Shown here piece after piece: positions 40,150 to 59,974 of a stretch of DNA of 64,000 nt (position 1 is the stretch's first letter; each line of letters begins with the position of its first letter). The position numbers and the translations under genes are program-made. The stretch covers positions 1-64,000 of the forward strand of contig DXHQ01000037.1 of assembly GCA_019113345.1 (NCBI GenBank). The letters run 5' to 3'. Origin of the DNA: Candidatus Faecalibacterium intestinigallinarum (GTDB lineage Bacteria > Bacillota > Clostridia > Oscillospirales > Ruminococcaceae). The notes beneath the pieces were generated by a model. It was not told the DNA's origin and made no database searches. It saw only the letters and a list, made by a program, of their open reading frames with translations.

Positions 40150-42000
40150 TCAGAGCCAGTTTTCGTTTTCCCTGATCCAATCTTCTTCGGGCGCGGGCTG
40201 ATGGCGCTGCGCCGGCGCAGCGGCCGGCGGCGTTTGTGCAGCCGCTGCGGCATCGTCCCACAGGTAGAGCGAGCGCACCTCCATGATGTCGGCGGCGGCC
40301 GCTGCATAGACCTCACAGTCCAGGTAGTGGTTGTCGGCGTGGGAGGATTTTACCGCCCACCGCTGCACCTCTCTGCCGTTGACCCGCTCGGTGACCTTGT
40401 GTTCGGACGTGACCTGCTCGGCGTAGTCGAGGTCGCAGTCCTTGTGAACCATCCACGACCCGCTGCCGTTCGGGCGGCGCATCCGGGCGGCGATCATGTC
40501 CTTGTACTTGCCGCCGTCCACCAGGATGAGCTGCAGGCCGTTGGCCCGGCTGCCGGCCTTGTCCACGGTGGAGATGCGGTAATGCCCCTGCAGGTTGGAC
40601 ACGCCCTTGCAGGGCCGCACCCACTCGGTGTTGGCGATGCAGAAATTGTAGACGGCGTCGGTCTGATCGCCGCTGTCCATCAGGGCGAGGTCCACCATCA
40701 TGGACCCGCCGTCCGGGACACGGAACTCGGTGCCCATGATCCGCTCGACCTCGTCCATCGAGAGGGCCTGCCCGTGCGCCACGTTCTGGCTGGTCATGTA
40801 GTCGCCCCAGGCCCGGATGGTCCAGTACAGGCAGTTTTCCTGCACGTCGATGCCGCCGGTCAACAGCTTGGCCCAGGCAGGCAGCTCCCAGGCCGGCACG
40901 GCAGTCTGGCGCTCCATCACCATCTCGGCGTTGGTCTTGAGCTTGGTATCCTCCCACGGTTCGGCCAGCCACGAATTGACAAAGTTGTGCAGCAGGTCGG
41001 GGTCGTCCTTTGACTTCATGAACTCCCGCGCGATGTCCGAGAAGGAGGTGAACGGGGAGTATAGGGTGTTCATCCAGTAGGCCACGCTCTTGGGCGTCTG
41101 CGTGTCCTGCCGGACGTACTGCCACTGGCCGGCGCGCAGCATGGCGCCCTTGTCCCGGTCGGTGATGATGCAGCCGCACTCCTGGCACAGGTAGGTGGTC
41201 ATGTCGGCGCGCTTTGCCCGGTCGGGCACGTCGTCCTTGCTGGGCCATTTGAGCTGCGCGAATTTCAGCTCGATGTACCTGCCGCAGTGCGGGCAGGGCA
41301 CGAAATAGTGTTTTTCGGCGTCCGCCTCCTCTTTGGCCTTCCAGATGGGGCCGGTCTTGAGGGTGGGGGTGGACGCCATGAAGATCTTGCGGTTGAAGAT
41401 GTAGGTCTTGGTGCGCTCGATGGCCAGGGAGATGGGGTCGGCCTCGCGCTTTGTCGCTCCGGGGTACTTGTCCACCTCATCGAGGAACAGGTACCGGATG
41501 GGGGTGGACGCCAGGTCGGCCGGGCTGTTGGCGCCGGTCAGATAGACGGTCATGTCCCGGAATTTCTGCGCGAGGACCTTGCTCTCATGCTCCCTGTACT
41601 TGGCCCGCAGCGGCTTGCACTGGCGGAACATCGGCCCCAGCTTTGCTTCGACGGTCCGCTCGGCCAGCTCGTCGGAAGGATAGACGATCATGGCTGGCGC
41701 CGGGTCCTGATCGATGGCGCTGCCCAGAGCGTTCTCCATAGCCGACGTGCCGCCCACCTGGGTGGGCTTGACAAAGACGATCCGCTCGGTGGTATCGTCG
41801 CTGAAGGCGTCCATGATCTCGGTCAGGTAGGGGGTGAGAGCATTGCGCCAGGGGCCTGAAATGGAATTGCTGTCCGGGAGGATACGGTTTTTCTCGGCCC
41901 ACGCGGACACGCTCAGCCGCTCCCGCGGGCGCAGCAGTTCAACGGCGGGAGCCATCCACGCCGGCAGATCATAGGGCTTTACCGCAGGGCGACGGCTCAC
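40150..42000 (-). CDS. terminase large subunit, GpA family
   Basis: 616 residues, GTG start. ATPase motor motifs: PTQVGGTSAMENAL (Walker A variant, about 82-95) and RYLFLDEVDKYPG (Walker B, about 172). Two zinc knuckles (CPHCG and CQECGC, about 245-280) and the C-terminal nuclease region with GGIDVQENCLYWTI and DSGDQTDAVYNF follow. GpA terminases cut cos ends and pump DNA into the head. An Ala/Pro-rich tail closes it. Overlaps terS by 4 nt (GTGA). Confidence 0.95.
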   Translation of the reverse strand: MSRRPAVKPYDLPAWMAPAVELLRPRERLSVSAWAEKNRILPDSNSISGPWRNALTPYLTEIMDAFSDDTTERIVFVKPTQVGGTSAMENALGSAIDQDPAPAMIVYPSDELAERTVEAKLGPMFRQCKPLRAKYREHESKVLAQKFRDMTVYLTGANSPADLASTPIRYLFLDEVDKYPGATKREADPISLAIERTKTYIFNRKIFMASTPTLKTGPIWKAKEEADAEKHYFVPCPHCGRYIELKFAQLKWPSKDDVPDRAKRADMTTYLCQECGCIITDRDKGAMLRAGQWQYVRQDTQTPKSVAYWMNTLYSPFTSFSDIAREFMKSKDDPDLLHNFVNSWLAEPWEDTKLKTNAEMVMERQTAVPAWELPAWAKLLTGGIDVQENCLYWTIRAWGDYMTSQNVAHGQALSMDEVERIMGTEFRVPDGGSMMVDLALMDSGDQTDAVYNFCIANTEWVRPCKGVSNLQGHYRISTVDKAGSRANGLQLILVDGGKYKDMIAARMRRPNGSGSWMVHKDCDLDYAEQVTSEHKVTERVNGREVQRWAVKSSHADNHYLDCEVYAAAAADIMEVRSLYLWDDAAAAAQTPPAAAPAQRHQPAPEEDWIRENENWL

Positions 42001-42554
42001 GCCTTCATCCCGCCCTGGTCGTCACCTTTCAGCCGCATCCCGTCCACAAAGGCATTCAGCATGGTATCCAACTCCTTTCGCAGCGACCGCTGCGTACTTC
42101 TCACGGTGGTTGCATCCACATAGCCGGTCAGCATGCCGGCCAGGCGTGAGGTCATTCCATAGGCAAATTTTTTGAAGTTTGCCATAAAGTCGGACAGCTC
42201 ATCCACCGCCTGGCTGACCTCGATGTACTCGCCCTTTTCAATGGCCGTTTTCAGCTTGTGCAGCTCGGCCTGGCTGTTTTTCAGGGCGATTTCGGCCCGC
42301 AGCTTCTGCTCCTTGAGTTCGGCCTCTTTGTCCGTTTTGCTGCGCCCGTAGGCCTTGTCGGACAGATAGGCCGTGTACTTCTGCACCGTCGGCACAAGAT
42401 CATACCGGCGTCCGTCCGGGGTTTCGGTGGTCGGCAGGACGCCCTCCTGGGTGAGCTGCTGGATACGCCGCACACTCACCCCAAACAGGTCCGCCACGAC
42501 CTCCACGCGGTAGAGTCCACCGGCAAACGCCTTTCCATTTTCAACGTTTCTCAT
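41997..42554 (-). CDS. terminase small subunit, Nu1-like
   Basis: 185 residues. Winged HTH at 14-55 (VADLFGVSVRRIQQLTQEGVLP), then a long helical region (about 75-150) for self-assembly, as in lambda gpNu1 relatives. It recognises the cos DNA and recruits the large subunit. Confidence 0.88.
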   Translation of the reverse strand: MRNVENGKAFAGGLYRVEVVADLFGVSVRRIQQLTQEGVLPTTETPDGRRYDLVPTVQKYTAYLSDKAYGRSKTDKEAELKEQKLRAEIALKNSQAELHKLKTAIEKGEYIEVSQAVDELSDFMANFKKFAYGMTSRLAGMLTGYVDATTVRSTQRSLRKELDTMLNAFVDGMRLKGDDQGGMKA

Positions 42555-42820
42555 GCTGTCATTTCATTCTGCAAAGTTAGTTGTAACGAAGTGTGAATTT
42601 TGTTGAATTTTTTTCGCAGAAAAGCATCGGGCCTTCCGTGCCCCGCAGGGCCAATCCCTCCAGGAAGGACCCGCGAAACAAAAAATAAAGCGCACAGGCC
42701 TGTTACAGCCTTCCGGGGCCTCCGACCTGGGCGGGCGCGAAGGGGGACGCCCGCAGCTCCCGGCGGTGGGAAAAGAAACCACCATGCGCTTTCGAGGTCC
42801 GGTTACGGGGTCCCGGATGC
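42555..42820. other. non-coding region before terminase, candidate cos site
   Basis: No gene is seen in these 266 bases. Palindromes include ACAGGCCTGT at 42,694-42,703 and the CCTTCC...GGAAGG pairs at 42,628-42,668. A GpA/Nu1 terminase cuts at cos, which in lambda lies just before the small-subunit gene, so this gap is the best candidate; the cut point cannot be read from one copy. Confidence 0.4.
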
Positions 42821-42894
42821 TGGCACGACGGGCAGGAGTCGAACCTGCAGCCCGCGGTTTTGGAGACCGCCGCTCTGCATTGAGCTACCGCCGC
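42821..42894 (-). tRNA. phage-encoded tRNA-Trp(CCA)
   Basis: 74 nt including an encoded CCA end. Acceptor GCGGCGG pairs with CCGTCGT (two G.U). D-stem GCTC/GAGC has an unusual 6-nt loop AATGCA. Anticodon stem GCGGT/ACCGC has loop CTCCAAA, anticodon CCA (Trp). T-arm GCAGG-TTCGACT-CCTGC is regular. It lies 3 nt after a terminator-like T-run at the head of the late region. Confidence 0.88.
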
Positions 42895-42897
42895 ATA

Positions 42898-42932
42898 CAA
42901 AAAGAGCCGCGGGTGTCTCCATCCGTGGCTCT
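42898..42932 (-). terminator. terminator/attenuator between late promoter and tRNA-Trp
   Basis: On the minus strand AGAGCC-A-CGG pairs with CCG-C-GGCTCT, followed by TTTTTG. It lies about 5-40 nt downstream of a sigma-A promoter start and just before the tRNA, so transcripts reaching the tRNA and head genes must pass through it. Confidence 0.75.
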
Positions 42933-42940
42933 ACGAGTAC

Positions 42941-42970
42941 AGTATACCTCGCCCGAAATAGGAACTTCAA
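42941..42970 (-). promoter_or_regulatory. late-region promoter
   Basis: -35 TTGAAG (42,965-42,970), 18-nt spacer, -10 TATACT (42,941-42,946), leftward. It follows the sigma-like late regulator gene and precedes the attenuator hairpin, tRNA-Trp and the terminase operon. Confidence 0.7.
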
Positions 42971-43398
42971 GGAACTCTTTCGGGATTTTCGGGCGAAATT
43001 TCCATCGCATCCACCGTCCGGTGGTGCTGTTTTGCCGCCCATCGCAGGGTGACATTGTGGTCGGCCGCGATCCGCTCCCAGCGCTGGCCGAGGATGTACC
43101 TCCGGGTCAGGATGTCCCGGCGCAGGGGGTCGGGCACGGTATCAATGGCCGCCCTGACCTCGGCGCGGGCGGCGGCGCAGCGCGCAGCCTCGGCGGCGAG
43201 GCGCTGCTGCGCGTCCACGATCCGCTCCACCGCCCGCGGGATGGCCTGCCCGTCCCCGCCGCCGGGCATCCCGGTCAGCGCCTGAGTGACGCGGGCGGCT
43301 TCGGCGCGCAGGGCCTCGATCTCATCCGCGATGGTCTTTTCCCGCCGCAGCGCGTCGCGGTAGCGGTAGAGATAGGCGATTTTTTCAGGGTATGTCAT
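42967..43398 (-). CDS. sigma-70-region-4-like late regulator (DUF1492/ArpU-like)
   Basis: 143 residues. The C-terminal half (VPDPLRRDILTRRYILGQRWERIAADHNVTLRWAAKQHH shortened) is a sigma region 4 helix-turn-helix, with a coiled coil before it (about 20-85). Phage proteins of this type (DUF1492, ArpU) control late or muramidase genes. Its stop overlaps the -35 of the late promoter, so it may act right there. ATG at 43,398. Confidence 0.75.
   Translation of the reverse strand: MTYPEKIAYLYRYRDALRREKTIADEIEALRAEAARVTQALTGMPGGGDGQAIPRAVERIVDAQQRLAAEAARCAAARAEVRAAIDTVPDPLRRDILTRRYILGQRWERIAADHNVTLRWAAKQHHRTVDAMEISPENPERVP

Positions 43399-59898: not shown

Positions 59899-59974
<76 letters not shown>

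Follow-up and report, generated by a model that had tools for sequence, protein, structure and literature searches.

A terminator lies downstream of the late promoter in phage lambda, and the late operon of Shiga-toxin phages has tRNA genes at its 5' end. In the lambda-type late switches (Q/QBE/pR'-tR' of lambda, 21 and L), the regulator is the last gene of the early operon, and the Q binding element (QBE) of phage 21 is a tandem repeat overlapping the 3' end of the regulator gene. The RinA/Ltr proteins (phi11 RinA and phi13 Ltr) have been described as promoter activators, and their genes are positioned directly upstream of the packaging genes. Here we analyzed a locus that resembles both systems in the first 64,000 nucleotides (the window) of contig DXHQ01000037.1 from Candidatus Faecalibacterium intestinigallinarum. 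It comprises a RinA-family regulator gene, a direct-repeat operator, a promoter, an intrinsic terminator, a tRNA and the terminase genes; in phages L and Sf6, tRNA genes likewise occupy the 5' end of the late operon (PMC8022706). We tentatively read the locus as the switch for late genes in a Faecalibacterium-type prophage, an explanation that includes antitermination and that we hold with slightly more doubt than belief.

On the minus strand the order was regulator gene, -35 hexamer (holding the regulator stop codon), -10 hexamer, intrinsic terminator, tRNA-Trp, terS and terL. The arrangement of promoter, terminator, tRNA and terminase given in the preliminary description of this DNA was therefore borne out, as was the regulator gene ending on the promoter, since its TGA (42969-42967) falls within the -35 hexamer TTGAAG. 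The features were as follows.

42967..43398, minus strand: late regulator gene (143 aa) of the RinA/phrog_36 family, with two long helices followed by a C-terminal sigma-region-4-like domain
42961..42975, minus strand: putative operator, direct repeat GTTCC-TTGAA-GTTCC with a 10-bp pitch and the -35 at its centre (repeat search and covariation)
42941..42970, minus strand: late promoter TTGAAG-18-TATACT, inferred start at about 42934 (promoter pattern scan; spacing kept in relatives)
42899..42932, minus strand: promoter-proximal intrinsic terminator (leader fold; terminators at homologous positions)
42821..42894, minus strand: tRNA-Trp (CCA) with encoded 3' CCA (ARAGORN, Rfam, fold, comparison with the host tRNA-Trp)
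42555..42820, minus strand: non-coding interval 5' of terS, mostly common to relative L005; possible cos region (sequence comparison)
41997..42554, minus strand: terminase small subunit (phrog_57, E 6e-28)
40150..42000, minus strand: terminase large subunit, GpA type (PF05876, PF20454)

The regulator matched phrog_36 in a profile search (E 2e-14), the same PHROG that phi11 RinA matched with E 2e-38. In addition to this homology, the gene is located directly upstream of terS and has a repeat operator at its 3' end, as in the RinA family. In the AF2 model (pLDDT 87.5), two long helices preceded a small C-terminal domain. The best Foldseek matches of this domain included -35-binding sigma-4 domains, with good local agreement in geometry and a probability of 0.99 but E>0.5, which is not significant. 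Pfam analysis of the aligned relatives identified Sigma70_r4 in 16/23 and DUF1492 in 9/23. It had been stated in the preliminary description that no Q is known here; this can be made more precise, as the regulator itself is the obvious candidate, although it showed no detectable homology to lambdoid Q at any level.

The promoter was composed of the -35 TTGAAG (42970-42965), an 18-nt spacer and the -10 TATACT (42946-42941), with 9 of 12 consensus positions matching. A consensus scan found 2 promoter-like sites in 5 kb whereas 1.4 were expected. As the consensus match did not stand out from chance expectation in this stretch, the case for the promoter was built on comparison with related loci. 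Two sets of regulator loci were used, 102 from the host family and IMG/VR (set 1) and 64 from the host order (set 2); the total of 166 includes near-duplicates, and 42 promoters were left once duplicates were removed. The operator search required a 5-base direct repeat with a 10-bp pitch and a TTGAA-like centre, located 13-14 nt ahead of a -10. This class was present in 51/166 regulator loci compared to 8/1495 control windows (40/102 in set 1 and 11/64 in set 2, with 3/1018 and 5/477 in the respective controls). A TG-N extended -10, which was not among the search criteria, was found in 37/42 of the relatives' non-redundant promoters, whereas the window promoter lacked it.

Within a locus the half-sites of the 42 promoters agreed at 4.7/5 positions compared to 2.9/5 between loci, an agreement that is partly built into the repeat search. 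Half-site similarity tracked the C-terminal domain of the regulator (partial r 0.33, permutation p 0.002) and did not track the N-terminal part (partial r -0.07), as would be expected if the C-terminal domain reads the repeat. The operator repeat of the window was found as a single copy in the whole window when up to 3 mismatches were allowed. We consider the -35 region the probable operator of the regulator. The "good sigma-A promoter" of the preliminary description is too simple a reading, as the -35 region probably serves the regulator.

The window terminator AGAGCCaCGGauggagacacCCGcGGCUCUUUUU has its stem at 42932-42903 and a U-tract reaching 42899. The hairpin was predicted at -16.7 kcal/mol, and the leader fold reached -17.9 kcal/mol with a z of -2.7. 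The hairpin starts 8 nt past the -10, and the U-tract ends 4 nt ahead of the tRNA-Trp. The terminator was not listed by the pattern scan, probably because the scanner loop limit was 8 nt. In the relatives, a hairpin of <= -10 kcal/mol with a U-tract was counted as a terminator. One was located 3-103 nt past the -10 in 25/42 non-redundant promoters, and the next 100-nt bins gave 9/42, 5/42, 4/41 and 5/41. Terminators were present in 19/32 promoters vs 35/344 downstream windows in set 1 (p 4e-10) and in 6/11 vs 7/126 in set 2; part of the hairpins were bidirectional, with an antisense rate of 10/32 in set 1. It is this comparative evidence, not the consensus match, that shows the promoter and terminator to be more than chance.

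The layout extended to well-known phages. In phi11 of S. aureus, the repeat TGGCAGT lies 3 nt past the rinA stop codon, and a terminator (-13.2 kcal/mol, six T) spans +114 to +138, ahead of terS. SA97 and Lactobacillus PLE2 have the phi11-type layout with repeats that differ in sequence but are again duplicated, and TEM126 carries the repeat and the same hairpin as phi11 with one extra base ahead of the T-run. Terminators were also present behind the regulators of FP_Lugh, Aster and two NatCom phages. Among further RinA-type phages, D6E had a hairpin at the regulator stop codon and Javan626 a terminator further down, and no clear terminator was found within 400 nt behind the promoter in Vadim and Sha1. 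The predicted promoter-terminator layout is thus common, not universal, among RinA-type phages.

The tRNA-Trp(CCA) at 42894-42821, with its CCA encoded, was identified by ARAGORN and scored 62.8 bits with the Rfam tRNA model. The cloverleaf was the minimum-energy fold and the anticodon loop was intact. The D loop AATGCA does not contain the usual GG (G18-G19), which both the host and the Omnicron tRNA-Trp carry, and the first pair is G1-U72. The best DNA match to this tRNA was in MT839005.1 (L223), which has the same type of regulator upstream (HMM E 1e-15) together with a terminator. A further tRNA-like stretch was seen at ~1104-1182 of L223, between the terminator and the tRNA-Trp.

In the relatives, the position behind promoter and terminator was a recurrent slot holding either one tRNA (Trp, Ser, Ile, Gly or Met) or a tRNA-like element whose anticodon arm was abnormal or missing. 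Across sets 1 and 2, excluding the window locus, ARAGORN detected 10 tRNAs, and 9/10 were located 107-244 nt past the regulator stop; these nine were Ser, Ile, Gly and Met tRNAs plus one whose anticodon loop has 8 nt. A tRNA-like descriptor (acceptor stem, T arm and CCA) gave 13 matches in the 60 kb of slot sequence compared to 2 in 854 kb outside it, an enrichment of about 90-fold, although among the 13 the L051 match looks spurious and L084 and L095 are tRNA-Gly with a mis-assigned 5' strand. The elements of L004 and L005 were tRNA-like with an interior of ~80 nt and were not ordinary tRNAs. Those of L027 and L115 had one hairpin and no D arm, and L023 had an anticodon-like loop of 10 nt. 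In the Lactobacillus phage Lb element, the acceptor, D arm and T arm were present and the anticodon arm was absent. A DNA pattern derived from the L004/L005 interior matched, beyond the two source contigs, three stretches in viral contigs, all without the element.

Covariation in the tRNA-like folds was slight. The phiJL-1 element, found through DNA similarity to the Sha1 element, kept acceptor and T-stem pairing with 1 compensatory and 2 one-sided changes and no broken pair, and the acceptor stems of L004 and L005 were distinguished by a single compensatory pair. A hairpin ended <=9 nt ahead of 18/25 tRNAs or tRNA-like elements compared to 99/300 control positions (p 2e-4). Because the slot is recurrent and its occupants are varied tRNAs or anticodon-less mimics, these comparisons point to a role independent of decoding. 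The tRNA had been proposed to be a by-product or a sensor of readthrough, which is not the best reading of such a slot. Two side observations concern these elements. The T loop TGCRANY instead of TTCRANY recurred in the tRNA-like elements of L017, L027, L107, L115 and TMW 1.1386 P1, and L017 contained a sub-threshold match to D12-methyl RNA (2428-2471; 38.5 bits, cutoff 57) ~200 nt past its element.

Other phage RNAs were considered for the slot. GOLLD and ROOL are also non-coding phage RNAs near tRNAs, but they are ornate and hundreds of nt long. They were ruled out, as no Rfam match to them was found at the scanned loci and ROOL was rare in the host order and not beside the regulator. Separately, a row of odd CCA-bearing tRNA-like elements was present upstream of a ROOL RNA in L222 (G332:C1), with no RinA-type regulator <=1.5 kb upstream.

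The resemblance to lambda late control suggested in the preliminary description was anatomical and family-wide, running from regulator gene through direct-repeat operator, promoter, terminator and tRNA to the late genes. A repeat element at the late promoter with a terminator downstream, as in the lambdoid Q systems, was found in the window and its relatives. The regulator, however, is unrelated to lambda Q in sequence and has a sigma-4-like domain, and its operator is centred on the -35. The likeness is one of anatomy, not ancestry.

As the best explanation, which we put at a little under an even chance, we propose a second lock similar to that of lambda Q, in which the regulator's promoter is coupled to terminator read-through and the RNA made by read-through is processed at the tRNA-like element. 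Conservation and covariation suggest that the regulator binds the direct repeat that covers its gene's 3' end together with the -35 region. RNA polymerase starting at the late promoter would meet the intrinsic terminator ~35-40 nt on. In the lysogen, the terminator would block late transcription at its basal level as well as any read-through arriving from the early operon. Once the prophage is induced, polymerase engaged with the regulator might pass the terminator by antitermination, as with lambda Q at pR'-tR', and the tRNA, terminase and structural genes would then be transcribed. The likeliest role of the tRNA-Trp would be excision by RNase P, which would free the late mRNA from the terminator hairpin and define the 5' end of that mRNA, because the part that the slot occupants share, an acceptor stem and T arm close behind a hairpin, is a type of structure recognized by RNase P.

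Several results weigh against this explanation or lend it no support. About 40% of the promoters with a clear operator had no detectable terminator in the first 100 nt, and no likeness of the regulator to Q proteins was found among the PDB profile matches or the Foldseek matches listed. In Lactobacillus phages the terminator sits 3' of the tRNA-like element, which means that the order varies and that processing is a better fit for some members than for others. Additional terminators inside the late operon, sought as a sign of processive antitermination, numbered 17 on the minus and 19 on the plus strand and therefore gave no support for it. Furthermore, phi13 Ltr, a late regulator that belongs to the wider group but has its 18-bp repeats further upstream, was already required for the activity of a reporter extending from 200 bp ahead of the start to 50 bp past it (PMC13123087). 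This shows activation and not antitermination, and antitermination may add to activation or not occur. The same result favours a plain promoter activator with a leaky attenuator that costs a fixed factor without antitermination, as do the predicted sigma-4-like DNA-binding domain and an operator overlapping the -35. We regard this alternative as unlikely, although it is the strongest of those considered: many terminators are strong, including those of the window and phi11, a constant loss has no obvious benefit and leaves the enrichment of terminators near the promoter unexplained, and the prevalence of the extended -10 suggests some regulator-independent initiation. Less probable by some way is that the terminator belongs to the early operon and lies behind the late promoter incidentally. 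The regulator is indeed the last gene ahead of the late operon, where a terminator closing the early operon would be expected, and operators overlapping the stop codon leave little room upstream of the promoter; however, the terminators peak in the 100 nt past the -10 and are not spread along the leader, and late transcripts would have to get past them all the same.

Two further alternatives concern the RNA elements. That the tRNA-Trp supplements translation of late proteins is about as improbable as an early-operon terminator, if not slightly more so. The intact anticodon loop and encoded CCA would allow it, and the authors of the phage L genome proposed the same for one late tRNA (PMC8022706). 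Nevertheless, a tRNA-Trp is already present in the host, the standard code assigns a single codon to Trp, the slot isotypes vary between phages, and several occupants have no anticodon arm or have loops of 8-10 nt. A tRNA-sensing, T-box-like switch is very improbable. The terminator loop UGGAGAC complements the anticodon loop of tRNA-Trp over 7 nt, which was reached by 243/20000 loop shuffles, and an alternative leader-tRNA pairing was predicted to be more stable (-52.6 vs about -46.6 kcal/mol). Still, the complementarity was noticed after the fact at a single locus and a cis tRNA is made only once the terminator has been passed, so it was dropped as a mechanism. A T-box or other known riboswitch was ruled out, as the Rfam scan of the window gave only two tRNA matches at the gathering threshold.

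Two other features were noted in the window. A GC-rich imperfect palindrome CCGGGACCCCGTAACCGG lies within the interval 42820-42555 common to L005 and is a possible cos site. The minus strand also encodes a tRNA-Thr (GGT) at 59899-59974, which may represent a prophage attachment site or belong to the host.

The searchable literature, outside which most subscription journals lie, contained no mention of a promoter-proximal terminator or of antitermination for RinA/Ltr. The parts described here are of known kinds; their combination in RinA-family phages and the anticodon-less slot occupants appear to be undescribed there. In its widest form, which is doubtful and less probable than our explanation of the locus itself, the proposal is that RinA-family regulators are Q-like antiterminators evolved independently from a sigma-region-4 fold, and that late leaders carry recurrent tRNA mimics (acceptor stem and T arm, with the anticodon arm lost or corrupted) that process or protect the late transcript. 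These elements, mostly overlooked by ARAGORN, would be a recurrent and largely unannotated group of phage RNAs. In existing descriptions, late control of Gram-positive temperate phages works through activation of the promoter by RinA/Ltr; a terminator conserved at such a short distance from the promoter, even in phi11, would make read-through part of the switch, for which phi11, as a laboratory phage, is a direct test case.
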